From a virus, in the IMG/VR virus record IMGVR_UViG_3300036893_000017, positions 1 to 33,899 of that record: a DNA stretch of 33,899 nt. One strand, written 5' to 3'. The translations under genes were made by a program, and so were the position numbers. Below the pieces are notes generated by a model. That model saw only the letters and a program-made list of their open reading frames with translations, had not been told where the DNA came from and did not search any database. Below are positions 9,054 to 29,173 of the stretch, piece after piece (the first letter of the stretch is position 1; each line of letters begins with the position of its first letter).

Positions 9054-9066
9054 GCCGGAGGCCGTC

Positions 9067-10299: not shown

Positions 10300-10301
10300 T
10301 C

Positions 10302-10796: not shown

Positions 10797-10803
10797 TTCC
10801 ACC

Positions 10804-10825
10804 GGGGGCGCTTGGACAGGCCCCC
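10804..10825 (+). terminator. GC-rich hairpin, possible partial terminator or processing site
   Basis: GGGGGC (10804-10809) pairs with GCCCCC (10820-10825) around a 10-nt loop, followed by AGATTTT. The T run has only four bases, so termination would be weak. It lies between the decoration and the next gene and could lower expression after the highly expressed coat segment. Confidence 0.4.
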
Positions 10826-10846
10826 AGATTTTCCTTCGGAGGTCAG

Positions 10847-11161: not shown

Positions 11162-11186
11162 CGAACGCCCAACCTAGGAGGTTGTC

Positions 11187-11528: not shown

Positions 11529-12295
11529 TGGCAAGCCCGAACTCCATCACGGTCTCCGCACTCGACATCATCACTGCGGCGATGATGGAGCTTGGGATTC
11601 TGTCGGCCAACGAGTCTCCGGCTGCTGCTGAGGCTCAGTGGGGGCTCGTCAAGCTCCAGCGAATCATTGATCGGTACAACGCACGCCGTCCGATGATCTA
11701 TAGCGTGAACTTCACTATGTTCACGATGCCTGCTGGAAATAACCCTTTCACCATTGGGCCGGGTGCGATGTTCGACGTGAACCAGCGTCCCGTCAGCATC
11801 CCGTCCATTGGACTGATCCTGCAAGGAACGCCGGGAGTCGAACTTCCTTTGACCCGCCGGGACAGCGATTGGTGGGCGGCAAACCGGATCAAGAACCTCA
11901 CCTCGACGCTGCCGACCGACTATTACTATTCCCCGGATTGGCAGGTGCAGAGCAATGGCAGTCAGTGGGGAAATATCTTCTTCTGGCCTGAGCCGACAGC
12001 TTCCTATCAGATCAATCTGCAATCGCGGCAAGTGCTGACTGAGTTTCAAGCCATTACGGACGACTTCACGCTGCCGCCAGCTTACTGGGACTTGGTGGTT
12101 TATGAATTGGCCCTCAGCCTCACTCCGAGCTATGGACTGACGCCGAATGAGATTCTGTTGGCGGGACGCGCTGCTGCTTTGAAGGCTGTGCGGGGGAACA
12201 ATATCTCATCGCCCAGACTAGCCAGCGATGCGCCGAGTCAGATCAGCGGACAAGGAAGGCCAGACTTCAATTTCCTCGACGGATTGAGTCGGTAG
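11528..12295 (+). CDS. Head-completion/portal-adaptor protein (P22 gp4-like)
   Basis: 255 aa. In P22, gp4 is the adaptor that docks under the portal and seals the head after packaging. The N-terminus (T-A-A-M-M-E-L-G-I-L-S-A-N-E-S, then A-A-E-A-Q-W-G-L-V-K-L-Q-R-I-I-D) matches the usual start of this connector family. The middle is beta-rich with several Trp residues. It lies between the coat segment and the gp10-like gene, in the order of P22. Start ATG 11528 overlaps the previous stop. Confidence 0.78.
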   Translation: MASPNSITVSALDIITAAMMELGILSANESPAAAEAQWGLVKLQRIIDRYNARRPMIYSVNFTMFTMPAGNNPFTIGPGAMFDVNQRPVSIPSIGLILQGTPGVELPLTRRDSDWWAANRIKNLTSTLPTDYYYSPDWQVQSNGSQWGNIFFWPEPTASYQINLQSRQVLTEFQAITDDFTLPPAYWDLVVYELALSLTPSYGLTPNEILLAGRAAALKAVRGNNISSPRLASDAPSQISGQGRPDFNFLDGLSR

Positions 12296-14023
12296 ATGGA
12301 CTACGGGGGATTCATCGGCGGGGCTTACACCTTGCAGAGCATTGCAGCGGAGTGCCAGCGATGCGTGAATCTCTATCTTCAGCAGGACGAGTCTGGGGTA
12401 GGAAAAAATACTGCCATCCTGCTCAGTACACCGGGCTTGACTCGAAGAGTGGACGTGACTGGCACCAACCCGAATAAGGGGGTGCGATGCGTCTATGTGA
12501 CTTCCAAAGGACGGCTCTTTACCGTCATCGGCTCCAATCTTTATGAGATTAGTTCCACGTGGAACATTCTGGGGACATATGCCCTGCCCGGAGAGACGGG
12601 GACAGGTTTAGTCAGCATGACCGACAACGGGTCGGACATGCTGATCCTGACCGGGCCGAATGGCTATTGGTTTCATTTCAGTAACGATGGGGCGATTGCG
12701 ACCATTGCGATCAATGCGCCGGGCCTGGCATGGCAGGTCGGAGACCAGTTCACAATCACCGGAGGGGGTGCCATTGGCACTATCACTTCGATAGGCGCTG
12801 GCGGAGCTGCCACGGGAGTCTCGCTTACAATTCCCTCCACAGGCTATGCCAATACTCTTGGCGTGCCCACCACGGCGTCCCTCCCTTCCGTGGGGACGGG
12901 TATGACCCTGAATGTCACCGTCATCCCAGGGGACATGCTGATGCAGATAACGGATGCTGTGTTTCAAGGGGGGACGCAATGCGGATTCCTCGACGGCTAC
13001 ATTCTCTTCAATCAGCCGGGCACACAGCAGTTCTGGATCACGAACCTTTATTCGACGGTCATCAATCCACTAGGTTTTGCCAGCGCGGAAGGCCAGCCGG
13101 ACATTCTGCTCGGATTATTGGTGGATCACCGGGAAATCTGGCTTTTCTCTTCGACGCACACGGAGGTGTGGTATGACGCTGGCGGCGCAAACTTCCCCTT
13201 CGCCTACATTCAGGGAGCCTATATCTCGCACGGCATTGTCAGTCCTTGGACGGCTGTGCGTCTGGATAACACCGTCTTTTGGCTGGGTGCTGACGAGTTC
13301 GGAAATGGCATCGTATGGCGCGCAAACGGCTATGCGCCCCTTCGGGTTTCCACCTTTGCGATGGAGCAGGCTTGGCAGCGATACCCCACGATAACTGACG
13401 CCTATGGGTGGACGTATCAGCAGGACGGTCATAGCTTCTATGTGCTCAACTTCCCCTCCGGAGATGCGACATGGGTCTATGACGCAGCCACGGGGAAATG
13501 GCATGAGCGGGCTTATCTCGGAACTCTTGCGCTGAACGATGGGCAGCTCCATATCGGGCGTCCTAATACCCACGCCTTTGCTTTCGGCCAACATGTAGTG
13601 GGGGATTGGCAAACTGGATACCTCTACACAATGAGTCCAACCGTTTATGAAGACGATACCCGCGAGATCGTCAGACTCCGGGCTGCGCCCTACATCAGCG
13701 ATGAGAAAAAGCGTATCTTTTTCTATGAGTTTGAGCTGGATATGGAGGTCGGAGAAGGCAATCCGAATGCGATTGATCCTGCGACTCCACCAGCCGAGCC
13801 GGTGAATCCAGTCATCAATCTGCGATGGTCCGATGACGGTGGATATACTTGGTCGAGCTATCTGCCGGTGAATTTTGGCCCAGCCGGAGCCTATCTGGAT
13901 CGCGTGATCTGGCGACGGCTGGGGAACTCAAGGATGCGAGTATTTGAAGTTTCGACGGGGCAGAACAATACGAAGTTGACGCTCATCAATGCTTATCTTG
14001 AGCTGAGGGGGACAAATAGCTAA
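12296..14023 (+). CDS. Packaged-DNA stabilisation/tail hub protein (P22 gp10-like)
   Basis: 575 aa against about 472 in P22. In P22, gp10 binds below gp4 and forms the tail hub to which needle and tailspikes attach. The N-terminus F-I-G-G-A-Y-T-L-Q-S, C-Q-R-C-V-N-L-Y and T-P-G-L is typical. About residues 138-210 form a Gly/Thr/Ile-rich insertion (W-Q-V-G-D-Q-F-T-I-T-G-G-G and following) that looks like a fibre-type beta module and partly accounts for the extra length. The ATG lies directly after the previous stop with a weak ribosome site, so translation is probably coupled. Confidence 0.82.
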   Translation: MDYGGFIGGAYTLQSIAAECQRCVNLYLQQDESGVGKNTAILLSTPGLTRRVDVTGTNPNKGVRCVYVTSKGRLFTVIGSNLYEISSTWNILGTYALPGETGTGLVSMTDNGSDMLILTGPNGYWFHFSNDGAIATIAINAPGLAWQVGDQFTITGGGAIGTITSIGAGGAATGVSLTIPSTGYANTLGVPTTASLPSVGTGMTLNVTVIPGDMLMQITDAVFQGGTQCGFLDGYILFNQPGTQQFWITNLYSTVINPLGFASAEGQPDILLGLLVDHREIWLFSSTHTEVWYDAGGANFPFAYIQGAYISHGIVSPWTAVRLDNTVFWLGADEFGNGIVWRANGYAPLRVSTFAMEQAWQRYPTITDAYGWTYQQDGHSFYVLNFPSGDATWVYDAATGKWHERAYLGTLALNDGQLHIGRPNTHAFAFGQHVVGDWQTGYLYTMSPTVYEDDTREIVRLRAAPYISDEKKRIFFYEFELDMEVGEGNPNAIDPATPPAEPVNPVINLRWSDDGGYTWSSYLPVNFGPAGAYLDRVIWRRLGNSRMRVFEVSTGQNNTKLTLINAYLELRGTNS

Positions 14024-14520
14024 TGTCTACGCCTATTCCTCAACCGCCGCCAGTCCCTACTCAATCGAAGATGCTCGACGAAAACGGTCTGGCAAGTCGC
14101 CCTTGGATTTATTGGTTTACGCAGATAAAAAACATCATCGTCGATTCTCCCGCTTTCACCGGAGTCCCAACGGTTCCCACCGCACCGCCTCTGACTGACA
14201 ACATCCAAGTTGCATCTACAGCTTATGCGGATGCCGCTGTGTTGGTTGAAACAAACCGCGCTGAGACTGCCGAAGGGATTCTCGCGGCTTCGATTGCTGC
14301 GGAAACAGCGCGAGCTGAAACTGCTGAGGCTCTACTTGCACCCAAGGCATCTCCCATCTTTACCGGGATAGTGACAGAGCCAACGCCTGCCGTTCTCACG
14401 GCAGCGGTAACGGCCACATCGGCCATCGCGGGGGCCGCAAGCGCGCTCCCTTCAAATCCATTAGGGTATCTGGAGATGAGCATAAACTCGGTCACAGTGA
14501 AGGTGCCCTACTATGCGTAA
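14023..14520 (+). CDS. Putative tail needle/short tail-fibre protein
   Basis: 165 aa. A Pro-rich start (P-I-P-Q-P-P-P-V-P-T) is followed by a W-I-Y-W-F segment, a fibre motif (F-T-G-V-P-T-V-P-T-A-P, then A-S-T-A-Y-A-D-A-A-V), a helical Ala/Glu/Thr region of about 40 residues (E-T-N-R-A-E-T-A-E-G, E-T-A-R-A-E-T-A-E-A; likely trimeric coiled coil) and a second F-T-G-I motif. The same place in P22 holds the tail needle gp26, also a trimeric coiled coil. It starts by TAATG overlap. Confidence 0.55.
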   Translation: MSTPIPQPPPVPTQSKMLDENGLASRPWIYWFTQIKNIIVDSPAFTGVPTVPTAPPLTDNIQVASTAYADAAVLVETNRAETAEGILAASIAAETARAETAEALLAPKASPIFTGIVTEPTPAVLTAAVTATSAIAGAASALPSNPLGYLEMSINSVTVKVPYYA

Positions 14521-15049
14521 CTTCCATCAGCTTACGAGCGGGATCAACGTGACGCCGTTGCTGAACCAACTCTATCGCCATCCTGAGTTGTGGAACCAGC
14601 ACCGTATTCGCACCGAGCATGATCAAAGTCCCCATAGTCAATGCGACGATATTTTGGTGCGCTTTCAGAGTGGCAAGGGGGTCGAGGTCGTCGATGACCC
14701 TGAGTGTATCTGGTATCCGGCATGGGACGTTTTGACAGAGCTGCATTCCATCCTCTTCAATCTTTGCCGGACAGTTTGCGCGGAGCGGATTGGGCGGATT
14801 CTGATTTCGCGGTTAGCCCCAGGAAAGGTCATCACTCCCCATGAAGATGGCGGTGCGGTCGCTACTTACTACACTCGGTACCAACTGCCTCTCCAAAGCG
14901 AAGCAGGCTGTGTGTTCGATTGCGATAGCGAACGTGTCCAAATGGCATCGGGACAACTGTGGTGGTTCGACAACCGAAAGACCCACTCCGTCACCAATAA
15001 TTCGCCCACCGACCGGGTAGCCTGCGTAATTGATTTGAGGACGAGATGA
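14513..15049 (+). CDS. 2-oxoglutarate/Fe(II) dioxygenase-like, Asp/Asn beta-hydroxylase family
   Basis: A 178-aa enzyme-like protein with the complete metal triad H110-x-D112 (I-T-P-H-E-D-G-G) and distal H158 (K-T-H-S-V), plus R168 ten residues on, the usual 2-oxoglutarate-binding Arg. The strand after the first His (Y-T-R-Y-Q-L-P-L-Q) and G-Q-L-W-W-F-D-N before the last His match the aspartyl/asparaginyl hydroxylase family. The reaction would be hydroxylation of a protein side chain or another substrate with O2 and 2-oxoglutarate. Sitting among tail genes, it may act on a virion protein (inference). It overlaps the previous gene by 8 nt and the next by ATGA. Confidence 0.8.
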   Translation: MRNFHQLTSGINVTPLLNQLYRHPELWNQHRIRTEHDQSPHSQCDDILVRFQSGKGVEVVDDPECIWYPAWDVLTELHSILFNLCRTVCAERIGRILISRLAPGKVITPHEDGGAVATYYTRYQLPLQSEAGCVFDCDSERVQMASGQLWWFDNRKTHSVTNNSPTDRVACVIDLRTR

Positions 15050-15513
15050 CAACCTACGCGTTGGAATCACTTTCGACTGTGCGTCCTGAGTTGGAAGAAT
15101 TACTGCCTCATCATTGGAGAGAGATTGCACGAGACAAAGACAACCCGAAGTTCCAGTTAAAGCCCGATTGGGACAGCTATCTCGCGTTGGAAGCGGCAGG
15201 GCAGTTCTTTATGATGGGTTGCCGGGTGGATGGGAGACTGGCCGGATATTTTATTGGGTTCGTTCGCAGGCAGTTGCATTATGTTGACTCGCTCGCGCTG
15301 ATCGCGGACATTTACTTTATCCTGCCGGAATACCGGACTGGCCGCATTGGAGTCGAGTTATTCAAGGAAACCGAGAAGGCCGCAAAGGCGCGGGGAGTGG
15401 ATAAAATCTATCTCGGATGCAAGTCGGCTCCGGGTCTGGATCGGACAAAACTCTTTGAACGGCTTGGATATAAGAAGATCGAATACACGTTTGCTAAACT
15501 GATCGGGGAATAG
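15046..15513 (+). CDS. GNAT-family N-acetyltransferase
   Basis: 155 aa. The acetyl-CoA-binding motif A is visible as D-I-Y-F-I-L-P-E-Y-R97-T-G-R-I-G102-V-E-L-F-K, a variant of the R/Q-x-x-G-x-G/A loop, followed by the helix and by strand V-D-K-I-Y-L-G-C. The end L-F-E-R-L-G-Y-K-K-I-E is the usual GNAT C-terminus. GNAT genes are known next to tail and ejection genes in some short-tailed phages; the substrate is unknown, perhaps a tail or internal protein. It is coupled by ATGA to the dioxygenase, which suggests that the two act together. Confidence 0.82.
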   Translation: MTTYALESLSTVRPELEELLPHHWREIARDKDNPKFQLKPDWDSYLALEAAGQFFMMGCRVDGRLAGYFIGFVRRQLHYVDSLALIADIYFILPEYRTGRIGVELFKETEKAAKARGVDKIYLGCKSAPGLDRTKLFERLGYKKIEYTFAKLIGE

Positions 15514-15515
15514 CC

Positions 15516-16322
15516 ATGTGGATTGACCTCGAAGATCGCCTGCAAGAGAAACATGAGCGGCTAGGGCAAGACTGCTTCATCGCGGCTGCGGCTATCGGAG
15601 TAGGTGGTTTAGTTTCCGGCGTGGGGTCGGTAATTGCGGGGCATGAATCGTCCTCAGCCGCAAACAACGCTGCCGGGATACAGGCGCAGGAATATCAGCA
15701 GAACCAGACGAACCAGGCTCCCTTCATTGGGGCTGGTCAGAATGCGCTTCAGACCATCGCGCAGGATCAGACGAACCAAACCGGCTTTGCAACACCCTTC
15801 AATCCTCAGACTTATATCGACACTCCCGGCTACCAGTTTCAGCAGCAGCAAGGCGAGAATGCAATCAATTCCAGCGCAGCGGCGACGGGAGGGGTGCTCA
15901 ATGGCGGCACTCTCAAGGCTCTGGATCAATACACAACGGGACTGGCCAATTCGACCTACAATACGGCTTACAATCAGTATCTCCAGAACGCGAATCAGCA
16001 ATACAATCAACTCTTCGGCGTGGCACAGTTGGGCGAGCAGGGGGCCGGAACTTTGGGGCAGCAGGGGACGCAATCTGCGGCGAATCAGGGAAGTCTTATC
16101 AATGCCGCTGGCCAGGATACGGCGGCGGGAATTGTTGGAGCTGGAACCGCGATCAACTCTTCGATTGGGGCAGGCGTGAATAACAGCAATTCGCAAGCGA
16201 TTCTCGCTCAACTAGGATCGCAATCTGGCTATGGGCAAGTCTCGCCGGGAGGGGCCACGATCCCTTTCAACTCTAATCCGGGGCAGGTCTCCACGGCCCA
16301 GCAGATAGCGAGCCAATTCTGA
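15516..16322 (+). CDS. DNA transfer/ejection protein (internal virion protein)
   Basis: 268 aa. A hydrophobic Gly/Ala segment near residues 21-42 (I-A-A-A-A-I-G-V-G-G-L-V-S-G-V-G) is followed by a Gln/Asn-rich body with a recognisable pattern: I-G-A-G-Q-N-A-L-Q-T-I, then T-P-G-Y-Q-F-Q-Q-Q-Q-G, G-G-V-L-N-G-G-T-L-K-A-L and Y-N-T-A-Y-N-Q-Y. These are typical of phage DNA-transfer proteins that leave the head with the genome and form a channel through the envelope. It is first of three such genes, at the same place as P22 genes 7, 20 and 16. Confidence 0.78.
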   Translation: MWIDLEDRLQEKHERLGQDCFIAAAAIGVGGLVSGVGSVIAGHESSSAANNAAGIQAQEYQQNQTNQAPFIGAGQNALQTIAQDQTNQTGFATPFNPQTYIDTPGYQFQQQQGENAINSSAAATGGVLNGGTLKALDQYTTGLANSTYNTAYNQYLQNANQQYNQLFGVAQLGEQGAGTLGQQGTQSAANQGSLINAAGQDTAAGIVGAGTAINSSIGAGVNNSNSQAILAQLGSQSGYGQVSPGGATIPFNSNPGQVSTAQQIASQF

Positions 16323-17770
16323 TGCCTGATTTCAACATCCCGACACCGCAGATCACCTCGCCTCTCGCGCTGATGGCGCAGGTTGGAGGGATTCAACAGC
16401 AGCAGCAGAATCTCCAGCGAGGGGGAATCGCGCTTACTCAGGAACAGCAGGGCCAGCAGGACGATGCCGATGGGCGTGCAGCGATGGCGGCTGCGACGAA
16501 GATTGACCCCACCACGGGCCAATATACGGTTGACCGCCCCACACTTCTCTCCACTCTGGCAAAGTTGAATCCGACACGCGCTGCTCAGACTGCGACGGCA
16601 CTGACGCAGCAGGACACCGCAGCGCAGACGGCGCAGGCGAACCTCACAGATGCCCAGCAGAAGGCGCAACAGGCCCAGCTTGCTACGGCGAAAGCGCATG
16701 TGGACATGAAGGATCAGCTTCTCCAAGGTGCGACAGATGAGCCGAGCTATCAGAACGCGCGGAATCTGGCAATCCAGAATGGCATCAGTCCAAATGAGAT
16801 GCCGCCGACTTACAATCCTCAGTGGGTGGCGCAGGCCCATGCTCAGACTTTGACTCAACAGAATCAGATTGCGAATGCCCAGAAAGTAGCGGAGCAGGCC
16901 GAGAATGTCCGCAAGGATACTGCGACTGAAGCGCAGACGGCGGCGACACAGCAGAATACGCAGGCTTATCGACAGGCGGACCTGGGAGTTCGGCGTCAGC
17001 AGGTAGGGATTGCCGGAGGTGAACTGGCATTGAAGCAGCAGCAAACGGGGATGAGTCAGAATGGACAACCCTCTGACCTCGCAGCGGCGATTGCACAAGG
17101 CCATGTCGTGCCGGATCGTTTGGGCTATCTGCTATCGCGCAATCCGACATTGATTCAAGGCGTTATGGCTGCTGATCCAACCTTTGACAGCTCTAAGGCT
17201 GCGTCCTATGCGAATACCTATAAAGACTTCACCAGTGGGAAGACTTCGGTTGCGCTGAATGCTGGCGGAACGGCTTTGCAGCATCTTCAAGAATTGCAAG
17301 GAATGAACACCGCAGAGAGTCATATTCCGGGCACGGCTGATTACAACGCCTACCAGAACAAGGCGGATACTGTTTCGGCTGAACTCGCCCGATTTTATGG
17401 GACGGATACAGTTCCGGGAATCGCGGCGATCAAAAGCACACTGACCTCGCAACTTCCGGGGACACGAGATGCAGCCATTTCGACCCAAGCGAAGTCAATG
17501 GGGGACAAGTTGGACAGCTACCAGCAGACTTGGCAAAATGCTGCACCTTCAGCCGCTTATCAAGCTCCCATGCCGGGTATCAGTCCGAAAGCCATTGCAG
17601 CGCGGGCAGCTCTCGATCCGGACTATAAGCCGGTGGGAACGGCGTCCTCGACGCCTACACCTCAAACGCATCAGTTCTCCGTTTCCGCATGGCAACGCGC
17701 TAACCCGAACGGTAATGCGAATGCTGCCAAGGCAGCGGCGACAGCGCAGGGTTATCAGGTGGCTCCCTAA
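16322..17770 (+). CDS. Second ejection protein, Gln/Ala-rich
   Basis: 482 aa, starting in the TGATG overlap with the previous gene. The first 240 residues are a long Gln/Ala/Thr-rich helical region (many Q-Q and A-Q pairs) likely to be coiled coil; the second half is more ordered (R-N-P-T-L-I-Q-G-V-M-A-A-D-P-T, then Y-Q-N-K-A-D-T-V-S-A-E-L-A-R-F-Y). Size and place match the middle ejection protein (P22 gp20-like, 471 aa). No sequence motif proves the role. Confidence 0.65.
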   Translation: MPDFNIPTPQITSPLALMAQVGGIQQQQQNLQRGGIALTQEQQGQQDDADGRAAMAAATKIDPTTGQYTVDRPTLLSTLAKLNPTRAAQTATALTQQDTAAQTAQANLTDAQQKAQQAQLATAKAHVDMKDQLLQGATDEPSYQNARNLAIQNGISPNEMPPTYNPQWVAQAHAQTLTQQNQIANAQKVAEQAENVRKDTATEAQTAATQQNTQAYRQADLGVRRQQVGIAGGELALKQQQTGMSQNGQPSDLAAAIAQGHVVPDRLGYLLSRNPTLIQGVMAADPTFDSSKAASYANTYKDFTSGKTSVALNAGGTALQHLQELQGMNTAESHIPGTADYNAYQNKADTVSAELARFYGTDTVPGIAAIKSTLTSQLPGTRDAAISTQAKSMGDKLDSYQQTWQNAAPSAAYQAPMPGISPKAIAARAALDPDYKPVGTASSTPTPQTHQFSVSAWQRANPNGNANAAKAAATAQGYQVAP

Positions 17771-18762
17771 TGGCCGTGCAAGCGATTGACCTAAGTGCGG
17801 GGCTCGTTCCGACTCCCTCGCAGTCTGGAGCAATTGACATCTCGGCTGGATTGACGCCGAAAGCCGCACCTACAGCCGATACGCGCTCTCTTTGGCAGAA
17901 GGCCGAGGACAATTTCAACTCCAACGCGCAAGGAGCACAGCCGGGCGACAACGCGGTCGAAGGATTCGTGAAGAATGTCAGTGCTGGGGGAGCGGATGTA
18001 GTTCGCTCCATTGCTCATGCTGTCGCCCATCCTCTCGATACTATCGAAGCTTCTCAGACCGCAGCCTCTCAGGAGATGCGCAAGCCGATTTCCCAGGTCG
18101 CTGCGGATACCGGGAACCAGATCAAGACGATGGTCACAAATCCAGGGCGCACCATCGGCCAGTTCGGAGTGGGGGCGCTTATCGGAGAATCTGGCCTTGC
18201 GGCTCCAAAGGCCATCGCCGCAGTGCCTGACGCTGTGCAGAGCGCTGTAGACGCTATTCCCAGTCGAGCTAACGCAGCCTCGGTCTTCAATGATCTCAAT
18301 ACCAAGCTAGCAACCCAACCTGTTCCGCTGAGTGATACAGTTGCGCCCCTCCAGCGGGCAACCGAGATTGGTGTGCGGGGTGGGTCGTTGCCGAAACCGA
18401 TCTCCGATCTTTTGACGCGCTCTCAGTCCCCAGTGCCGATGACCTTCCCTGAAGCGCGAGACTATCAGATGAGCCTTACCGATCTCTCGCGAGAGCAGCA
18501 AGCATCGCTCACGCCTCGTATGAAGGCTCAGGTTGCTCAGGTCAATCAGGGGCTTTTCAACGATATTCATGCTGCGGCTGAATCAGCGCAGCCCGGACTT
18601 GGCTCGGATTTTGCGAATGCCATGAAAGAATATCGACAGGCTTCGCAGGTCAAGAATGCGATTGATGCTGCAAAAAAGATTGCGCTTCCTGTCGCGGCAA
18701 CCGCGATAGCTGGAGGAGGCGGCGCATTGGCTCTTCGCTATCTTTCGGAGATTGGCAAATGA
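17770..18762 (+). CDS. Third ejection protein with C-terminal membrane segment
   Basis: 330 aa, TAATG overlap. The N-terminus repeats D-L-S-A-G-L and D-I-S-A-G-L, a short tandem motif known from large internal virion proteins; the body is helical and the C-terminus has a hydrophobic Ala/Gly helix (A-L-P-V-A-A-T-A-I-A-G-G-G-G, about residues 302-325) able to enter the host membrane. It is much shorter than P22 gp16 (609 aa). It completes the three-gene ejection set and precedes the fibre genes. Confidence 0.6.
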   Translation: MAVQAIDLSAGLVPTPSQSGAIDISAGLTPKAAPTADTRSLWQKAEDNFNSNAQGAQPGDNAVEGFVKNVSAGGADVVRSIAHAVAHPLDTIEASQTAASQEMRKPISQVAADTGNQIKTMVTNPGRTIGQFGVGALIGESGLAAPKAIAAVPDAVQSAVDAIPSRANAASVFNDLNTKLATQPVPLSDTVAPLQRATEIGVRGGSLPKPISDLLTRSQSPVPMTFPEARDYQMSLTDLSREQQASLTPRMKAQVAQVNQGLFNDIHAAAESAQPGLGSDFANAMKEYRQASQVKNAIDAAKKIALPVAATAIAGGGGALALRYLSEIGK

Positions 18763-21700
18763 TGAAACGCATACTTTTGACCCTGATGCTCGTCCTCTCC
18801 TTCTCGGCGCTGGCGCAGCGTCCCGCGCTTGTCTCGCCGGTGATTCGATTCTCTGACTCGAATGGAAAACCATTGGCGGGGGGCTTCCTTTACAGCTATG
18901 CTGCCGGGACGACAACCCCGCTCCAAACCTATGTAGATTCGACGACTGGCGCGCTCAACACGAATCCCGTGGTGCTCGATTCAACGGGCAGCGCGACCGT
19001 CTTCCTTGGCGCGAACGTTTACAAGCTCGTCCTCCAGAACTCCTCTCATGTCCAGCAATGGAGTGCCGACAACATCGCGCAGGGCATGTTTCAGTCTTCC
19101 TATGTGCAAAGCGTTTTCGGACGCACTGGAGTAGTGACGGCGCAGACGGGTGACTATAGCTGCTCGATGATTACTGGGGCCATCTGTTCTATTCCGAATC
19201 TCTACAATCAGACGGTTCAAGTTTCAGGTACTTCGGCGACTCAAAGACCTATTCTGAATTTCCTCCCCGGCGTCATTGGGTCGATCTTCACGTTCAGCGC
19301 ATCGGGCGGCACGAGCTATTCCACCGCGCCTACCGTGACCTTCACGGGAGGGGGATGCACCTCTGAGCCTACGGGAGGGGTTTCTGTTTCAGGGGGTGCC
19401 GTCACCAATCCGGTCATTACATTTGCCGGGTCTGGATGCACCACCCCTCCAACTCCAGGCTTCTCAGGTGGTGGAGGGGTGGGAGCCACTGGTTCGACGA
19501 CTCTCACTCCGACCGGCATCACCTGTGTGGATGATCCCAGCCATACCTCGACGGACTGCACTTTTGCATTTGGAACTGGCAGCGGCGGCGGAGGGGGAAG
19601 CTGCACGCTTACCGATGAGACTGCGAGCCGCTCCATCGGGGGAATTTACCAGAACACCACGACCGGCATTATGTATGTCAGTGGGTTCGGACTTACCTCT
19701 GGATCATCGGTGGGTTCTCTCTATATCGCAGAGGGGCCTTCCTATCCCACGATAACAGTATTTGGGCAGACGGCCACTGCGACGATTGTTGGAGGGAATC
19801 CGGGCTTTTTTGCGACCATTTTGCCTGGATACTATTATCAGATGACGGCTAATGGCGCAGTCTATGGCATTGAGAAATGGATCGAGATTACGGGCTGCGG
19901 TGGTGGAAGCAGTAGCGGGGTCTCATCCTTCAACACACGGACAGGGGCAGTGACCCTATCCAATGCGGATGTTGCCAGCGTAGGCACCCTCCCGAATGGC
20001 ATCAATAACTGCCCACTCCAAAATTCATCGAATCTGTGTCTCACGATCAGCAGCTCCGACCAGTCAGCCACCATCAATTCAGACATCTCCACTATTGCGG
20101 GACTGACAATCCCGCAAGGGGCTATCGGGTTCCCAGACAATGCAGGCGCGGTGACTACCTATAACCTCAATGGATCGCTGCAAGACCCCTCCGGCGCGAA
20201 TGCTGTTATTGTGATGCCCAAACTGCCCAACTATACGGGGCAGCCTGCAAAGATCACTTTGCGCGGATATACCGACCCTCCGGGTATTCAGACCTCAACA
20301 CCAGCTGGCGCGGTTCTTGCGACCACCCTCAATACGGCTGGGGCGAACCTGATTGGAGGATACGATTCGGCAACTGGAGGCGGCTATCCAAACTTCACCA
20401 ACGTTGATCTGGACATCTCTAACCTGACCATTCTTGCACCCGCCAATCCGTGCGCGACAATGGTCAATGCTTTCAATGTTCTCACGGCTGAGATCACCCA
20501 TGTCAGCGTCTACACCACTACGGAAGCCCTTCCATCCTGCACTACCGGCACGGGGATTGTCTTTCCCGCGACCGACAACAATGTCCGACTTGTTGGGGAT
20601 GATATTGCGGTGGCTGGGTTCTATAACGGGGTGGTCTTTGGGGAGCATCAACATGCAGGCGCGATATATGAGGCCAACAATGTCAATGGATTTGTGTTCG
20701 ATTCCCAAAATGATTCCTCGAACACAGTGCAGGCAGACTATCTGTGGTGTCAGGGATGCACAAATTTCATAGTAGGAGAAGGCAGTTGGCCCACTTGGAT
20801 TAGAGTGACGGTTGGAGATTCGGAAGGCACGACTGGCTATGACTGCTACGACCCCGGCAATGTCCTCTACGGGGACGCATACATTCATCACTCGTATGGA
20901 GGTGTGACTGTTCCAACTCGGAGCGGGTGCGCCAACCTTCGCCTTTGGTCGATTGATACCGGGATTTGCTATGGCGCAACCTGCCCCGCAACTGGCACCG
21001 TCACTCACACCGCTGGCGCACTGACGTTGAACCAACTCATGCTCGGCAATGGAGCAGCGGACTCAAAGGTCGATCCTGACGCGGGAACAGATGGAGCCGG
21101 GAACGGGAGTATGGTGAGCTTGACTACGACTGGCCCATGCCCTCTGGGTGGCAGTGGGGGATGCGAAGGATATGCGCAAGCTACCTTCCCGTCGGCAGGA
21201 ACCTCCGGCAATAACTGGCTCGCGGGCGATGCATCAGGCCTTGGGCAGGCTATTGGGACGGGCACATTCAGCCATTTCTGCACAGCGGCGAATTACTCCT
21301 CGGTCTGCCCCCCTGGTTCCACCGTAACGCTTCAGGTCAACAGCGTAAACAACACCAGTCAGACGACGCTGAACGACGAGACCTCGACAACAAATATCAC
21401 GGGCCTCACTATCACCCCATCGAATCCCTCCGGTGGAATCGTCAAGCAAGAGATCACGGGGACTGTAAATCTCGGCAACATGTCGCAGCTCTTCGTGGAT
21501 AATCCGCAGACCTCGACCTACAACGCGGTCACGGGCGACATGCTCGGTTGCAAGACCATCACCGTGTCATCGGGTACGTTCACCATCAACCTGCTTTCGA
21601 CCGTGCCTCTCTCCGGTCAGTGCCTCCAGGTCATCAACTACGGCGCTGGCACGATCACGGTGAGTCCGAACGGCCATAACCTGAACGGTTCTTCGTCGAG

Positions 21701-22604
21701 CGCGACGATCCCGCCCGGCTCGGCTTCGGCGGCGACGGGCGGCTACTTCCACAGCGACGGCGCGGCCTATGAAGGCGTGTGGAGCGGCAACCTTGCGGGC
21801 ACCTACTGCGCGCTGGCCGGATGCACGATGACCGGCTCGATCCAAATGGCGAGCGGACAGCTCTATCAGTGGAACGGAGACACGGGCCTCTCGCGGACGG
21901 GAGCCGGAACAGTTGCTTTGGGCAATGGGACAGCGGGCAGTGCCAACGGAACATTTGCTGCGGCAAACTTCAACGCGGGCACGGAGTTTGAGGCGCTAGC
22001 GCAAGGTACGGCTACCTCTGGTGCCAACTTCGGTTCCGGGGAAATGGAGTTCTTTGCAAGCTATTGGAATGGCTCTGCCGCAGCGGTGGACACGTGGACT
22101 TGCGCGACATCGCTGGCAACCGGGTCCAACCCAGCCAGCACGCTAGCCTGCAACTGGGGGGGCGGCGATGCGTCGGGTACCTTCCAAGTCCCAGCGTTGC
22201 AGGTTGGAACCATCACATCCTCGACTTTAGCGGGCACTTCCGGCATCTGCGCATCGGGAGCTAGTAACGCCTTAGCGCAGACCGGATGCATCTTTAAGAA
22301 CGCATCTGCAACGGCGTCCGCTACCCCTGGAACTGGGGTGACCTCCGTAACATGTGCGACGGCAACCTGCACCAACACGCGGGGAACCTACACCGTCGTG
22401 GGTGGGACGGCCACCACGGGAACGATCTTCTCGCTGTCATGGACAGCTACGGCGACGGCCTATGTCTGCACTGCGACGATGAACGGCGGAACGGGCTTCT
22501 TGGGAATTGGGAACTCGTTGGCCACCACCACAGGCATGAACATCACAGCCGGAGTAACGGTATTGGGCCTGACCTTCAACGTGAACTACAGTTGCCAACC
22601 ATAA
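18759..22604 (+). CDS. Large tail fibre/tailspike-like protein with Sec signal peptide
   Basis: 1281 aa. It begins with a signal peptide (MMKRILLTLMLVLSFSALAQ, cleavage likely at ALA-Q), odd for a virion protein. Next comes a tail-fibre/tailspike N-terminal domain (about residues 25-110: D-S-N-G-K-P-L-A-G-G-F-L-Y-S-Y-A-A-G-T-T-T-P) that usually binds the tail. Two fibre motifs follow, V-F-G-R-T-G-V-V-T near 118 and S-F-N-T-R-T-G-A-V-T near 388, then a beta-rich region (about 500-760) likely to be a beta-helix with several Cys, and further fibre domains. ATG 18759 has GGAG 8 nt upstream and overlaps the previous stop. Confidence 0.75.
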   Translation: MMKRILLTLMLVLSFSALAQRPALVSPVIRFSDSNGKPLAGGFLYSYAAGTTTPLQTYVDSTTGALNTNPVVLDSTGSATVFLGANVYKLVLQNSSHVQQWSADNIAQGMFQSSYVQSVFGRTGVVTAQTGDYSCSMITGAICSIPNLYNQTVQVSGTSATQRPILNFLPGVIGSIFTFSASGGTSYSTAPTVTFTGGGCTSEPTGGVSVSGGAVTNPVITFAGSGCTTPPTPGFSGGGGVGATGSTTLTPTGITCVDDPSHTSTDCTFAFGTGSGGGGGSCTLTDETASRSIGGIYQNTTTGIMYVSGFGLTSGSSVGSLYIAEGPSYPTITVFGQTATATIVGGNPGFFATILPGYYYQMTANGAVYGIEKWIEITGCGGGSSSGVSSFNTRTGAVTLSNADVASVGTLPNGINNCPLQNSSNLCLTISSSDQSATINSDISTIAGLTIPQGAIGFPDNAGAVTTYNLNGSLQDPSGANAVIVMPKLPNYTGQPAKITLRGYTDPPGIQTSTPAGAVLATTLNTAGANLIGGYDSATGGGYPNFTNVDLDISNLTILAPANPCATMVNAFNVLTAEITHVSVYTTTEALPSCTTGTGIVFPATDNNVRLVGDDIAVAGFYNGVVFGEHQHAGAIYEANNVNGFVFDSQNDSSNTVQADYLWCQGCTNFIVGEGSWPTWIRVTVGDSEGTTGYDCYDPGNVLYGDAYIHHSYGGVTVPTRSGCANLRLWSIDTGICYGATCPATGTVTHTAGALTLNQLMLGNGAADSKVDPDAGTDGAGNGSMVSLTTTGPCPLGGSGGCEGYAQATFPSAGTSGNNWLAGDASGLGQAIGTGTFSHFCTAANYSSVCPPGSTVTLQVNSVNNTSQTTLNDETSTTNITGLTITPSNPSGGIVKQEITGTVNLGNMSQLFVDNPQTSTYNAVTGDMLGCKTITVSSGTFTINLLSTVPLSGQCLQVINYGAGTITVSPNGHNLNGSSSSATIPPGSASAATGGYFHSDGAAYEGVWSGNLAGTYCALAGCTMTGSIQMASGQLYQWNGDTGLSRTGAGTVALGNGTAGSANGTFAAANFNAGTEFEALAQGTATSGANFGSGEMEFFASYWNGSAAAVDTWTCATSLATGSNPASTLACNWGGGDASGTFQVPALQVGTITSSTLAGTSGICASGASNALAQTGCIFKNASATASATPGTGVTSVTCATATCTNTRGTYTVVGGTATTGTIFSLSWTATATAYVCTATMNGGTGFLGIGNSLATTTGMNITAGVTVLGLTFNVNYSCQP

Positions 22605-22634
22605 GCTACACGCTGGTGAACTAAGGAGCGCACT

Positions 22635-23747
22635 ATGAATCTAAAACGATGGAGAAAACTGCTTTATCTGCTTCTCATCCCTGCGGCTCTGGCGGCGCAG
22701 ATAAACGTAAACTCAACCTACCTCTCTTCGCCTCTGACGGCGACGAGCCAGACCAGTGCGCCGATCAACCTGTCTAATCGCAGTTGGAGCGCGGGTACGA
22801 TTCAACTTACCGGAGTTAGCCTTACTACGGCAACCTTCGGAGTGTTGGGAAGTTCTGACCCAGCCTGCGGTTCAACTACTTTCCAACCCATCGCCATCAA
22901 CCTGTTCTCGACACCGGGAACAGTGGCGACGACGATGACCGCAACCGCGACTGCGCTCTATCAGGTCAATCTCGCGGGACTTTACTGTATCGAGTACCAA
23001 ACATCGGGCACCTTCACTGCAACCAGCATCACCCTGCTCCTCACTGCTTCGCCCAATGCCATCGTTGGGCGGAGTGGTGGGAGCAGCGGCTCAGCCGTGA
23101 CCGCAGTTTCAAACAGTGACGGCACACTGGCGATCTCCCCTACCACTGGCGTGGTGGTGGCATCCCTGGCGCTGGGCCATGCAAACACCTGGACTGCCAC
23201 CCAGACCTTTGCCACCATCTCCCCAACAACCATAACCAGCGCCGCACTGTCCGGCACGTTCACGGGCGCTCCGATCTTTAGCGGCAACGTCTCATTTACA
23301 GGCACACCGACCTTCTCGAATCCCTTGGCGCTGGGATCATCGACTTCTACCACGCAGACCCTCTGCGACAACTCGACCAAACTGGCGACTACGGCCTATG
23401 CGGGAATTGTCTGCAATCTGGTGGAGACGACCGGCTCACCATTGAGCGTGATAGCGACCTCAACATTATTTTGGAACAACAGTAGCGGAGCCTATGTCTT
23501 CGATTTGCCAACTCCCACATCAGGTCTGCAATTCTGCTTCGGCAACTATAAGACTGTTGCCCATGCAATATCAGCCGTGCCCCCATCTGGCGTGACCATC
23601 TACTACAAGGGCATCGCGGGAACGGCTGGCTCATCGACAGGGATTGTTTCCAGCGGTTTGGCTGGCGACTTCTTTTGCGTGGTCGGGACGGATTCGACCA
23701 CCTATGAAGTGACGGGTGCTGGGCAGGGAACGCTCACGAATAACTAG
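22635..23747 (+). CDS. Fibre-like surface protein with signal peptide
   Basis: 370 aa; GGAG precedes ATG 22635. The N-terminus is a classical Sec signal (MNLKRWRKLLYLLLIPAALA, then A-Q). Fibre-type repeats follow: H-A-N-T-W-T-A-T-Q-T-F and T-F-T-G-A-P-I-F-S-G-N-V-S-F-T-G-T-P-T-F, the latter resembling repeats of phage tail-fibre shafts. The rest is Thr/Ser/Gly-rich beta structure with scattered Cys. Likely a secondary fibre or receptor-binding protein; the signal peptide leaves open that it is exported from the cell instead. Confidence 0.65.
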   Translation: MNLKRWRKLLYLLLIPAALAAQINVNSTYLSSPLTATSQTSAPINLSNRSWSAGTIQLTGVSLTTATFGVLGSSDPACGSTTFQPIAINLFSTPGTVATTMTATATALYQVNLAGLYCIEYQTSGTFTATSITLLLTASPNAIVGRSGGSSGSAVTAVSNSDGTLAISPTTGVVVASLALGHANTWTATQTFATISPTTITSAALSGTFTGAPIFSGNVSFTGTPTFSNPLALGSSTSTTQTLCDNSTKLATTAYAGIVCNLVETTGSPLSVIATSTLFWNNSSGAYVFDLPTPTSGLQFCFGNYKTVAHAISAVPPSGVTIYYKGIAGTAGSSTGIVSSGLAGDFFCVVGTDSTTYEVTGAGQGTLTNN

Positions 23748-23757
23748 GAGATGACTG

Positions 23758-24564
23758 ATGAGACTACAACACCTATTGATCTGCACGGCTTTACTTGCCA
23801 CCTCCTGCACGGAAGTCGCGGTTGGGCCAGCGCAGATCAGCGTGGGCATTCTGAGTTCAGGCGGGAGTGCCACCAACTCATGTACTGGTATCGATGCACT
23901 GTTTACCGCCGAATATGCCAGCACAGGCTCACCCATCGGCTCTGTGACCACGATTCCCGATGCCACCGGCAATGGAAACACTGCCACGGTCGTCTCCGGC
24001 GCGCTGACTGTGAGTACGGTTACTCCGACGCCGAACGGCACGCAGACGTTTGCCCCAGTCGCAGCCTTGGCCACATTCACCGGATTGCCAACACCGACCT
24101 CATTCACGATTGTTGCCGTCTATCGACTTACTGCGACCGGGGGCGGTCAGACTATCCTTGGCTCGAATAATGTGGCAGGAGGGCCTATATATTATGCCTC
24201 AGAGTCATCGTATTCTGGGCACCCCCAAGGACTTACTAAGCAATTCGTGACTGACGTAGCCGAAGGAACAGCGGCATCGACAACCAATTGGGTAGAGACA
24301 GCCGTTAGCTCGGTGGCCGGGTCATCGGTGCAATTTTATATTGACGGCGCGGTCGATACGTTACAGCCCCACAGCATCTCGACCACCTACTCGAACGGCT
24401 TCGGTGCTTTGTTTTCCTCCGCCTCTGGAGGCTCGGAGCAGATATACGCGGTACTGGCCGAGATTGATTTTGTGAGTGCGTCGTCCGGGTCGGCTGGATC
24501 GCTCAGCGGATCGCAAATTTCCGCGATCCACGCTTGCCATGTGTCGAGATATGGAGCGGTCTAG
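23758..24564 (+). CDS. LamG/concanavalin-like domain protein with lipoprotein-like signal
   Basis: 268 aa. GGAG is 7 nt before ATG 23758. The N-terminus (MRLQHLLICTALLATSC) ends in a Cys at 17 in a weak lipobox (A-T-S-C); either lipoprotein or plain Sec signal is possible. The C-terminal 170 residues have the pattern of a concanavalin/laminin-G jelly roll: T-S-F-T-I-V-A-V-Y-R-L, then W-V-E-T-A-V-S-S-V, V-Q-F-Y-I-D-G-A-V-D and the final L-S-G-S-Q-I-S-A-I-H. This fold binds carbohydrate. Probably a sugar-binding surface protein acting with the neighbouring fibres. Confidence 0.65.
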   Translation: MRLQHLLICTALLATSCTEVAVGPAQISVGILSSGGSATNSCTGIDALFTAEYASTGSPIGSVTTIPDATGNGNTATVVSGALTVSTVTPTPNGTQTFAPVAALATFTGLPTPTSFTIVAVYRLTATGGGQTILGSNNVAGGPIYYASESSYSGHPQGLTKQFVTDVAEGTAASTTNWVETAVSSVAGSSVQFYIDGAVDTLQPHSISTTYSNGFGALFSSASGGSEQIYAVLAEIDFVSASSGSAGSLSGSQISAIHACHVSRYGAV

Positions 24565-24565
24565 C

Positions 24566-27500
24566 ATGAAGCGTCTTGTCTATCTCGCCCTGCTCTGCGC
24601 CTTCCCTATAGCGGCCCAGACCACGAACATTGCCATTCCTGCTGCCTCTGGAGGCGGCATCAAGACGACGCTCAACGAGCGGATGGGTGTCAACCTCGAC
24701 GATGCCTCCGATTATGGGCCGGGCCAGACACTCACCAACCTGATTGCATCGCCACCTGCGTCTTTCCCACTCCAGATTTGGAACCAAGCCTCCTTTTGCG
24801 CGTCCAGCGGGGCCACTACAACTGCGTGGCAGGATAATAACCCGTCCTCCCCGCAGCGGGCGAACTTTTGGGCTGGAGCGACCTTTCAGGTGGTCTCCGG
24901 GGCAGACATCAATGCGACGGGCACGATCACTTCGAGTACAGCTGCGAATGGCTCGACGACCGGGCAGGTCTTCACACTCTCGCCTGCGCTGGGTTCGCCG
25001 TGTTCCAGCAACGATACGATGATTCTGCGCTGCCGCTCTGCCTCAACTACGGGCTGCGCCAGTGGACTGACACCCGACAGCGCAGGCGGATATAGTGGGA
25101 TTACAGGCACAGGATCTTGGTCTGCCGCTTTGGAAAGCACAGACCTTTCCCCATCGTCGTCTGCTCCCCAGGCTTTGGAGTTGGTCGCACCCGGCTCCGC
25201 CACGGCACTCAACGATTTTGCTTTCGACCAAAGTCTGTCCTCAGTCTACGGCGGTGGTGTGTGGCTCAATCTGAATGGGAACTACGCGCTGACCTTCCGC
25301 GCCAAAGCAACTTCAGGAACTCCGACGTTCTCCTATGAGGTGTTCCGCAATGGAGGGACATCGACGGTCTTTCTCAATGGAAGCGTGACCCCCACGGTGA
25401 ACACTACGCCGGGAGCGGGCTGGACGAATTATTCCTTCCCCTTTACTGCCAGCGAGACCGGCGCGCAGAACACGGAAGCTGACATCCGAATCACTGCAAC
25501 TGGAGGGACGGTGCTGACACAGGACTGGGCCGTGACTGAGTCTACCTCTGGGGGCAACCCGACTATCTTCCGCAACACGGTCTATCAATATCTGCTTGCC
25601 CACAAACCCGGAACCCTCCGCTTTATGACAGGCAGCGGATGGGGCTGCACCCTCGACGCCATGATTACCAGCTACAGCGGGCGGCCCAGGTGCGGCTATA
25701 GTTCGTATGCCAATGTTGGCTATATAGTTACATACGGTTTGAACGACTTCTTGCTTCTGGCGGCTTCCGTGGGAGCAGACCCGTGGTGGACATTCAGCGC
25801 TTACTCACCCACGACGGATATGGCGAACATGGCCGCGTATTTCAACGCACCCTGCTCAAGCGGGAACAGCTACGCTACGATCCGCTGCAACTTCCTCGCG
25901 ACTGCGGCAGGAGGCATCTATGCTGGGATGACATGGCCGCAGGTCTTTACAGCGGCAGGGCACGGCCAAATCTATTTGGAGATGGGCAACGAGATTTGGA
26001 ACTCGCCCAACGGTGAAAACCTGTATGTCAACAATGGGCAAAATTATGGGTTGCTGCTGGGGGCCAATGTCGCGGCCTTCAAAGCATCTCCCTACTACAT
26101 AAGCTCCATGCACATCGTAGGTTCTGGTTTTGTCGGGGCCAACACCGGGAACTGGAACAACAATGTTCTAACGGCGGCCCAAACGATAACCAATGGCTTG
26201 CCGGACTTCATCGATGCCGCGCCTTACCAGTACACCTTTATGACGGACGTTAGCACCAATCAAAACGTCTTCGGCCCAATGTTCGCGGAGCCAGTAAATT
26301 TTAGCACCCTCACAACCGGCCCAGTCTACCAAGACCAGCATTTTGCGTACACAAACTTTGGAGTGAACAGCGCGCATTACGAAGAGAACATGAACACCAC
26401 ATACGGTTTGACTGGCGTCACGCAGGCGGAGCTATCTGACAATATAGCTGGGGTGGGCGCGGGACTGGCGATGACCGAAAATATGCTGCTGGCCGCGAGG
26501 GATGCGGGAATCAAAGTCCAGAATGCTTTTACTTTACCGAGTGTGGGCATATATCCCTATGTCTATAGTTGCTTGTATGCCTGCTCCAATTCGCAGGATA
26601 GTTCGGTGTACTCGCCAGTCTGGGGTGTAAGCAAATACATGTCGGGGCCAGGGTCATCGGGAATCATCGACAGGCCGACAGGAATTGCCCTCGGACTCGT
26701 CAACAACGCCATTGGCAACAAACTCTATGTGTTGAACACCGTCCAGACTGGAACGCCGACCTACAATATGCCGGGGGGCCAGCCCAATCCGGGGGGCAGT
26801 CAGACCTTCACCGGAACCACAACGATGGGATCGAACGTCATCACCAGTGTGGTGCCTCCAGGCCCTCCGGCCTGCGGTGGGTATTGTCTTGGCGAAATCA
26901 ACAATTCGATCACTGGCCCCGGCATTCCATCCGGCACCCTGAATACGGCTTACAACTCAGGGGCGAATACCCTGACCCTGAGTCAGAATGCGACATCCAG
27001 CGGGAGCAATACGTTCTACGAGACGATCTACTCGATCGCTCCCAATACATCAGTGCCGGAGGTGCAGGCGTTCGGGTTCGGGGACGGCGCGGGGAATTAT
27101 TCGGTCATCGCCTACAACTTTGACCTGACCAACAGCCATGCCATTACATTCTCCGGCAGCGGTGCCCCGACTGGAACATGCACGAAGACGGTATTCACCA
27201 GCACGAACATTACGGACAATAACGAGGGCGTTTACCTTGACGGGACGCCGGTGGTCAGCTCCCCATCTTCGACCAGCTACAACTGCGGGTCGGGGGGAGA
27301 CACGCTGGCCCCGTATTCGATGGTGACGTACACCTACACCGTAGGGACCGGCGCGCAGACGTGGTACATCCGGCAGGACGGTGCAGGACGGTACGATGCT
27401 GCGCGGGTCGCGGCAGGGTTTACCGGCTCGGCAATCGGCTGTGACGGTCTGGGCGATGTTGCCTACCCCGGCAGTGGAACGAATCAACATTGCGCCTTTG

Positions 27501-29173
27501 GCGACTTCCGCTTCCTCTACGACGACCAGACCTATGGAAACCGTGCGTGGGTCGCCGCAGGAGGAGATAAGGTGGTTGTCCGTGGGTGCGCGGCCATCAC
27601 CGGCAACTCCACCACTGCGGCAAAGCCTGCTGGCCCTTGCCGGATTGGATTTGATTTCCAAGGGCCATGCTCTGGGGCCGGATGCGGGGCTGGGTATACA
27701 TGGTGCTATGGAGGGGGAGGGGCATCCGGATGTGGCATTCCTGCGCCTCCAGCAGGCACGTCAGGACAGCCCACAGTCATCGAAGGCGGCTGTTACCCCT
27801 CGTGCTCGACGGGAACGCCAAATACGACGACCCTGCGCCCGAACCAATCAGTGCTGGCGGAACTCTTTGGAGACTTCTCCGTCAATACGGTTTTTGACCT
27901 CAGCGCAACGCAGTATGTCCTCTTGGACGGTCTTTACCTCAACACCCATGCGACCTGCATTATCCACATCAGCCCATCGGTTGCGCCCTGCTCTAGCTCG
28001 GCCCCATTCTCCAGCTATGCGAATGAGGGTGTCCGCCGTGACCCGACGACCTCGAATATCACATTGACCGATCTTCTGATCTCAGGGATGGAGGACTCTT
28101 GCCTCTATGGGCCGATGGATGGCGTTGAGACGCTCAACGATGTGGAGTGCGCCTACAACGGATACACCGGGGACAACTACGACGATGGAACCCACTCCCA
28201 ATCCGGGGGAACCGTCACGCGTACCAACTTCACCTCCATCTGGAACGGATGTGAACAGTACTACGGCTCATCCTATGCGATCCCAATCTCTTACTGTGCA
28301 GATGACTCATCGAGCGGCAATGGCGACGGCACAGCGACTCCGGGCGTGTCCAGTGATACCTTCGTGAACCGCTACGAGACGATGGCCTACAACACGCAGG
28401 ATGGAGACGATGTGGGGCATAATCAAGCTCCCGGCTCGGCTGCATGGTACAACTCCACCTCCTACGGCAACGAGGGAGGTTCATTCAAGAGCGGCGGCGA
28501 ATCTGCGATTCTCGTCAACTCGCTTTCGGTCACGAACTGCCGCAGGATGCTGGCGGCAATCACGGGCGCACCGAGCACCTTCAACACCTACCTGAGCGAC
28601 GCTTGCCGGGCCGGGGGGGATGGGGTTGGGTTCAACTTCCTCGGCGGTGGATCGGGCGAAACGATCCAGATTTACAACGACTCCATCGTAAGCTATGGCG
28701 GCACGATGATTGACGTGCAGATACAAGGCGGAGGGAGCTGCACAGGCTGTGTGATGAGCTTCCAGAACAATGCCATCATGGGGTATACCAACCCCAACTA
28801 CAACTCCGGCGCGCAGCCGACGATGTGGAACACGGTCTTTCCGACAACCCCGACCTACAACGACTATTACAATCTCAGTTCATGCCCAGCATCGGGCACT
28901 GGCGAGGTCTGCACAAGCCCTCTCTGGGTAGGGCAACCGGCCACACCAACGACAGATTCAGGGCTGGACAATTTCGACTTCTACCCCACCAATCCGGGTA
29001 GCCCCCTGATTCATGGCGGCGGAGGTGGCGGACTGACGCCGGTCGCGGACTACTTCGGGGTAGCGACCACCAGCCCTCCGGTCATTGGGGCGGTGAATGC
29101 AATGGCGGCAGCGGGATACAGCACGATCACCTCTGGGCATGTAAACAAATCGGGCCACACCATAACGCAGTAG
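24566..29173 (+). CDS. Giant glycosidase plus beta-helix depolymerase-like protein with signal peptide
   Basis: 1535 aa. ATG 24566 starts a Sec signal (M-K-R-L-V-Y-L-A-L-L-C-A-F-P-I-A-A-Q); a longer frame upstream lies in the previous gene and is rejected. About residues 30-720 look like a clan-A glycoside hydrolase: P-G-T-L-R-F, V-G-A-D-P-W-W-T-F and I-Y-L-E-M-G-N-E476-I-W-N, where the Asn-Glu pair is the usual acid/base site. A beta-sandwich follows, then from about 930 a right-handed beta-helix-like part (W-Y-I-R-Q-D-G, V-F-D-L-S-A-T-Q-Y-V-L-L-D-G-L) rich in Cys. It probably degrades host surface polysaccharide. Confidence 0.72.
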   Translation: MKRLVYLALLCAFPIAAQTTNIAIPAASGGGIKTTLNERMGVNLDDASDYGPGQTLTNLIASPPASFPLQIWNQASFCASSGATTTAWQDNNPSSPQRANFWAGATFQVVSGADINATGTITSSTAANGSTTGQVFTLSPALGSPCSSNDTMILRCRSASTTGCASGLTPDSAGGYSGITGTGSWSAALESTDLSPSSSAPQALELVAPGSATALNDFAFDQSLSSVYGGGVWLNLNGNYALTFRAKATSGTPTFSYEVFRNGGTSTVFLNGSVTPTVNTTPGAGWTNYSFPFTASETGAQNTEADIRITATGGTVLTQDWAVTESTSGGNPTIFRNTVYQYLLAHKPGTLRFMTGSGWGCTLDAMITSYSGRPRCGYSSYANVGYIVTYGLNDFLLLAASVGADPWWTFSAYSPTTDMANMAAYFNAPCSSGNSYATIRCNFLATAAGGIYAGMTWPQVFTAAGHGQIYLEMGNEIWNSPNGENLYVNNGQNYGLLLGANVAAFKASPYYISSMHIVGSGFVGANTGNWNNNVLTAAQTITNGLPDFIDAAPYQYTFMTDVSTNQNVFGPMFAEPVNFSTLTTGPVYQDQHFAYTNFGVNSAHYEENMNTTYGLTGVTQAELSDNIAGVGAGLAMTENMLLAARDAGIKVQNAFTLPSVGIYPYVYSCLYACSNSQDSSVYSPVWGVSKYMSGPGSSGIIDRPTGIALGLVNNAIGNKLYVLNTVQTGTPTYNMPGGQPNPGGSQTFTGTTTMGSNVITSVVPPGPPACGGYCLGEINNSITGPGIPSGTLNTAYNSGANTLTLSQNATSSGSNTFYETIYSIAPNTSVPEVQAFGFGDGAGNYSVIAYNFDLTNSHAITFSGSGAPTGTCTKTVFTSTNITDNNEGVYLDGTPVVSSPSSTSYNCGSGGDTLAPYSMVTYTYTVGTGAQTWYIRQDGAGRYDAARVAAGFTGSAIGCDGLGDVAYPGSGTNQHCAFGDFRFLYDDQTYGNRAWVAAGGDKVVVRGCAAITGNSTTAAKPAGPCRIGFDFQGPCSGAGCGAGYTWCYGGGGASGCGIPAPPAGTSGQPTVIEGGCYPSCSTGTPNTTTLRPNQSVLAELFGDFSVNTVFDLSATQYVLLDGLYLNTHATCIIHISPSVAPCSSSAPFSSYANEGVRRDPTTSNITLTDLLISGMEDSCLYGPMDGVETLNDVECAYNGYTGDNYDDGTHSQSGGTVTRTNFTSIWNGCEQYYGSSYAIPISYCADDSSSGNGDGTATPGVSSDTFVNRYETMAYNTQDGDDVGHNQAPGSAAWYNSTSYGNEGGSFKSGGESAILVNSLSVTNCRRMLAAITGAPSTFNTYLSDACRAGGDGVGFNFLGGGSGETIQIYNDSIVSYGGTMIDVQIQGGGSCTGCVMSFQNNAIMGYTNPNYNSGAQPTMWNTVFPTTPTYNDYYNLSSCPASGTGEVCTSPLWVGQPATPTTDSGLDNFDFYPTNPGSPLIHGGGGGGLTPVADYFGVATTSPPVIGAVNAMAAAGYSTITSGHVNKSGHTITQ

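Follow-up and report, generated by a model that had tools for sequence, protein, structure and literature searches.

The window is the whole stretch of DNA analysed here, an IMG/VR contig of 33.9 kb. By gene content, it comes from a P22-like podovirus. Its virion genes are followed by four consecutive genes (ORF1 to ORF4) with predicted export signals. The features are listed below.

2078..18762, +, terminase, P22-type portal, scaffold, coat, gp10-like head closure and DNA-ejection genes (PHROG matches)
18759..22604, +, ORF1, tailspike, 1281 aa, 34 Cys in the mature chain
18759..18815, +, Sec signal peptide of ORF1, residues 1-19, MMKRILLTLMLVLSFSALA followed by Q (signal scan, start-site evidence)
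18825..19079, +, head-binding domain of ORF1, about residues 23-107, P22/Pam1/Pan3 type (profile match, Foldseek)
22635..23747, +, ORF2, predicted exported, no family, 370 aa, 6 Cys
22635..22697, +, Sec signal of ORF2, MNLKRWRKLLYLLLIPAALAA followed by Q (signal scan)
23758..24564, +, ORF3, predicted exported, probable lipoprotein, 268 aa, 2 Cys plus the lipid Cys
23758..23805, +, lipoprotein-type signal of ORF3, MRLQHLLICTALLATS followed by C, lipobox-like (LLATS before C) (signal scan)
24566..29173, +, ORF4, predicted exported, 1535 aa, 36 Cys in the mature chain
24566..24616, +, Sec signal peptide of ORF4, residues 1-17, MKRLVYLALLCAFPIAA followed by Q (signal scan, start-site evidence)
24617..26540, +, N-terminal module of ORF4 (about 640 residues), CBM4/9-like carbohydrate-binding part plus GH51-like glycosidase
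25991-25993 (GNE) and 26381-26383 (YE), +, invariant Glu pair of ORF4, the first following Asn as an acid/base Glu does (alignment; reported as E460 and E590)
27344..29092, +, C-terminal region of ORF4, homologous to a signal-bearing 'virion structural protein' of Tunturi_1, 2 and 4

ORF1 lies at the spike locus, 3' of the ejection genes and within the P22-type virion gene set. Its N-terminal domain matches by profile the head-binding domain structure of the Pam1 cyanophage tailspike (7eeq, E 6.5e-14) and also Pan3 (9vyg). Likewise, the predicted model of ORF1 (pLDDT 76.5) gave Foldseek matches to Pan3, Pam1, Sf6 gp14N and the head-binding domain of the P22 tailspike. Since these are solved head-binding domains, residues 23-107 or so would be the part that holds the spike on the virion. 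By sequence and predicted fold, ORF1 is a P22-type tailspike. Beyond this domain it presents no family match; a receptor-binding beta-helix body like that of P22-type tailspikes is suggested by its helical look, judged by eye alone. Pfam and PHROGs gave no match for the whole of ORF1, for ORF2 or for ORF3.

The N-terminal module of ORF4 matches 2vrk and other arabinofuranosidases (E 3.7e-11 over about 190 aligned positions). NCBIfam ArfA was matched in 7 of 11 members of the ORF4 family, the ORF4 of the window not being among them. The structure prediction, made from three sequences, was poor (pLDDT 37), and profiles are the basis of the enzyme call. According to these, the module is a GH51-like glycosidase. 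The best Acidobacteriota relatives of this part include signal-bearing proteins of an exopolysaccharide locus, which also holds Wzx, Wzy, Wza and glycosyltransferase genes.

An earlier note on this DNA had described four fibre or spike proteins ending at 24640. The description clearly suits ORF1 only. ORF4 is instead a predicted glycosidase with a fibre-like C-terminal part and extends to 29173, and for ORF2 and ORF3 no family was matched. The suggestion that the genes were captured from secreted host proteins is supported for the N-terminal part of ORF4 only, through its exopolysaccharide kin, and transfer may have gone either way.

Other small genes of the window were also observed. Between terminase and portal, an ORF at 3761-4138 (+) with a TTG start has the N-terminus MNRRNFLQLFASASAAAGLGLTVPALAA, a twin-arginine-type signal. 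The phrog_24118 protein at 29633-30010 (+) carries an HGD...SDGCI motif resembling L,D-transpeptidase-type enzymes. A small probable lipoprotein (LMLCGC) at 30278-30682 (+) lies 3' of a membrane-type ORF at 30013; both genes are of lysis or spanin type in appearance, with no family match. Finally, the protein at 33237-33890 (-) is 13% Cys, with CSRCSDC-type repeats and matches to phrog_31265 and phrog_15341 (function not assigned).

Signals and start codons

The signals show a positively charged start, a hydrophobic core and an A-x-A cleavage site, at supported start codons. The ATG of ORF1 overlaps the stop of the preceding ejection-type gene (ATGATGA) and has GGAG upstream. Shine-Dalgarno sequences precede ORF2 (AAGGAG) and ORF3 (AGGAG), both at normal spacing. 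ORF4 starts 1 base past the ORF3 stop, again with GGAG upstream. With these sites and the tight or overlapping junctions, the claim that the genes at 18759, 22635, 23758 and 24566 begin with Sec or lipoprotein signals is borne out.

Signals were called by a home-made rule, not by SignalP. Applied to internal Met positions and to shuffled N-termini, this rule called a signal in 1.1% and 2.4%, respectively. The four consecutive signals are therefore not due to chance. In the packaging, head, tail and ejection genes 5' of ORF1, the signal scan found none (13/13 without signal). The home-made rule and the alternative starts of some relatives could point to an artefact of wrong start codons or loose calling. 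We consider it very improbable, given the low false-positive rate, the Shine-Dalgarno sites at many signal starts among relatives, and the cysteine statistics described below, which are independent of the start codon.

Scans of viral and bacterial sequences gave 193 ORFs with the head-binding domain, and 106 distinct complete ones were compared. Of these, 20, the window included, have a signal precisely at the domain boundary. In the remaining 86 no signal was detected, and nearly all begin directly at the domain. As the earlier note stated, the domain of ORF1 comes directly behind its signal. The predicted mature N-termini lie 1-10 residues (mostly 3-8) ahead of the domain core, and most signal-less starts lie 2-6 residues ahead. 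Cleavage of the signal would therefore restore about the usual N-terminus, like that of the signal-less virion-bound homologues.

This cleavable form bears on the idea that uncleaved signals were reused as hydrophobic anchors in virions or membranes. Hydrophobicity alone favours it. However, the signals have normal length, charge and A-x-A sites, and cleavage restores the usual domain start. Also, the ORF4 signal has fully diverged between the window and its relative L002, where the mature protein is conserved, and is still a signal in both. Anchoring seems highly unlikely. It was rejected on cleavage form, as wrong starts and chance signals were on start-site and false-positive-rate evidence.

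The earlier note named better start codons downstream of the signals in homologues as a sign against its reading, and such starts were looked for. In the window, no start backed by a Shine-Dalgarno sequence lies between signal and domain, whereas an in-frame ATG stands at the domain itself in L019, L023 and L027. Such an ATG could start a cytoplasmic form. The signal might then be inefficient or bypassed, with a cytoplasmic fraction of the spike going to virions and an exported fraction serving as free depolymerase or receptor blocker. Strong selection on the head-binding domain is consistent with this split. On the other hand, the window, L005, L032, L048 and L054 have no ATG at the domain, and many paired cysteines are ill-suited to a cytoplasmic fold. 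We regard the split as unlikely, although it is the strongest of the alternatives.

Homologues, hosts and cysteine content

The cultured phages Rhodoferax P26218, Xanthomonas PBR31, Thalassomonas BA3, Vibrio VvAW1, Vibrio 41E34.2 and Shewanella X14 carry the same domain. Their spikes start at or near it, with no room for a signal. Because these checked relatives form virions normally, the head-binding domain does not need export.

On the domain tree, the signal-bearing homologues tend to group together. The best tree needs 11 changes of the signal label, and supported branches force only 2. With a tree this weak, the homologues are not fully independent. Signals recur in the next four genes after the spike, in 33/67 genes behind signal-bearing spikes versus 36/260 behind signal-less ones (p 4e-9). 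The L048 spike matched only itself as a scan query, and no cultured relative of the second exported gene of L019 was found. In L068, at about 9844-10000, MSRRRFFGRFVSAITGAAGG stands 5' of the spike domain start and may be a twin-arginine signal; another candidate start Met lies at the domain.

Among cellular sequences, Acidobacteriales bacterium 59-55 has the closest relative of the N-terminal part of ORF1, its signal included, and two more Acidobacteriota genomes hold signal-bearing versions. The host of the window phage is probably a soil acidobacterium, judging from these sequences. In one Acidobacteriales chromosome (L083, 10001-11731), a signal-bearing head-binding-domain spike stands alone, with no phage genes nearby. 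It is flanked by methyltransferase and ExbB/TonB/TolB/OmpA-type genes and could be a remnant or a domesticated spike. In another Acidobacteriota genome, G242 (L098, 9692-15679), three signal-bearing genes lie in a row, the first being a head-binding-domain spike; clear phage genes were not seen around them. Homologues of ORF4 with even Cys counts occur inside runs of signal genes in phage contigs of 35-231 kb (L089, 5654-15334, and also L090-L093).

The cultured podovirus Tunturi_1 has signals on its annotated tail spike, gp14, and on gp12, gp13, gp16 and gp17; in its other genes checked, the signal is absent. Its four large signal-bearing proteins have 20, 10, 20 and 32 Cys. The siphovirus Tunturi_4 has two signal-bearing, Cys-rich genes. 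The Tunturi annotations were made by prediction, and the authors do not mention signals and name proteomics as a task to come (PMC11924767).

Signal-bearing spikes differ from the rest in their cysteines. They contain 2.02% Cys, versus 0.68% in signal-less spikes (p 9e-7), and the excess persists when each spike is compared with the rest of its own phage's genes (p 2e-5). These other genes have about equal Cys in both phage groups (0.47% versus 0.46%), on which ground host composition was rejected as the cause. An even number of Cys is found in 17/20 signal-bearing spikes versus 29/63 others (p 0.002). A CxxC pair, and never a single Cys, occurs in 5/20 versus 0/86 (p 1.5e-4). In these five, the conserved L and G of a PLxGG turn are both replaced by Cys. 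Taking one neighbouring gene per cluster, 85% of signal genes (27 clusters) have even Cys versus 47% of non-signal genes (58 clusters). The exceptions are L032, L048, L054 and L074, which have signals yet only about 0.7-0.9% Cys.

A protein folding in an oxidising compartment is expected to have paired cysteines. In statistical terms, content, even parity and CxxC pairs all fit export with disulfide bonding. The paired cysteines suggest that these spikes are exported and disulfide-bonded outside the cytoplasm.

Probable export and proposed docking of the spike

The proposal that the phage really exports the set is well supported by the cysteine content, parity and CxxC pairs and by the start sites. 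On this sequence evidence, we consider export of the spike set likely. The premise that virion proteins stay in the cytoplasm seems to be broken by these phages.

The spike also appears to keep its virion function. Between the window and L002, dN/dS is 0.05 for the head-binding domain, as against 0.27 in the remainder of ORF1. In the L019-L027 pair, signal and domain are both under strong purifying selection (few pairs were available, and dS is high in some). The domain is single-copy in 19/19 signal-bearing contigs, although these may be incomplete, and the portal phrog_156 is present in 9/13 of such contigs.

These observations bear on a role outside the virion, in which the exported set would strip or block surface polysaccharide, freeing progeny or stopping superinfection. 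The GH51-like glycosidase ORF4, with kin in exopolysaccharide loci, speaks for it, as does the lone bacterial spike gene beside tol-pal-like genes. Nevertheless, ORF1 lies at the spike locus past the ejection genes and is the only head-binding domain copy per contig, with the domain far more constrained than the remainder of the protein. We think this role improbable, somewhat more so than the split between cytoplasmic and exported spike.

The best joint explanation, which we favour by a narrow balance of probability, is that exported spikes attach to virions when the cell lyses or later. The Sec system of the host would export the tailspike and its three companion proteins. The signal would be removed in the oxidising periplasm, where the Cys-rich spike would fold and form disulfide bonds. 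Meanwhile, spikeless heads would be assembled and filled in the cytoplasm. Lysis would bring spike and head together, and the head-binding domain would dock on the tail. The glycosidase ORF4 and the lipoprotein ORF3 may act from outside on host exopolysaccharide, aiding release or spread. Reportedly, Israel et al. in 1967 (cited in PMC2989905 and PMC3741392) found that P22 spikes are able to join heads in vitro. The proposed docking at lysis resembles this joining of spikes to spikeless heads in the test tube.

More broadly, spikes made outside the cytoplasm, bonded in the periplasm and fitted at or after lysis might be wide in Acidobacteriota phages, in more than one tail type. We put this forward tentatively, as slightly short of an even chance. 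In the textbook view, tailed phages are assembled wholly in the cytoplasm. If the export model is true, assembly gains a step at or after lysis, and intracellular virions would be unable to bind receptors. Spikes may also gain stability in soil through disulfides. It would account for the many soil-phage spike genes that resemble secreted host proteins, and annotators should then keep signal-bearing genes in virion gene sets. The model is open to test now, as Tunturi phages are cultured.

Comparison with known systems

Tailed-phage spikes and Sec export are each known. Searches of open-access papers turned up neither a tailed-phage spike reported to have a Sec signal nor a description of the combination. 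Filamentous phage coat proteins are virion proteins with signals that cross the inner membrane. Those phages assemble in the membrane, whereas the phages described here are tailed, with heads formed in the cytoplasm. Phage endolysins with signals (fOg44 Lys44 type) and SAR endolysins pass through Sec during infection (PMC6116005). They are likewise Sec-routed phage proteins, but lysis enzymes and not virion receptor-binding proteins.

The N-terminal module of ORF4 resembles GH51 alpha-L-arabinofuranosidases and the Acidobacteriota exopolysaccharide-locus proteins, with both catalytic-type Glu positions invariant. However, overall similarity to the GH51 enzymes is weak, and in ORF4 the module is fused to the fibre-like C-terminal part.

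Tunturi_1 and Tunturi_4 (PMC11924767) have, like the window, runs of signal-bearing, Cys-rich spike and structural genes, and they share the C-terminal homology of ORF4. They differ in that a head-binding-domain match to ORF1 was not found in them. The P22 and Sf6 systems, with those of Pam1 and Pan3, share the gene order past the ejection genes and the P22-type portal, coat and tail genes. The spikes of P22, Sf6, Pam1 and Pan3 are like ORF1 in the fold and sequence family of the head-binding domain. In contrast, they are signal-less and made in the cytoplasm, and spikes of the ORF1 kind bear a Sec signal together with numerous paired cysteines.
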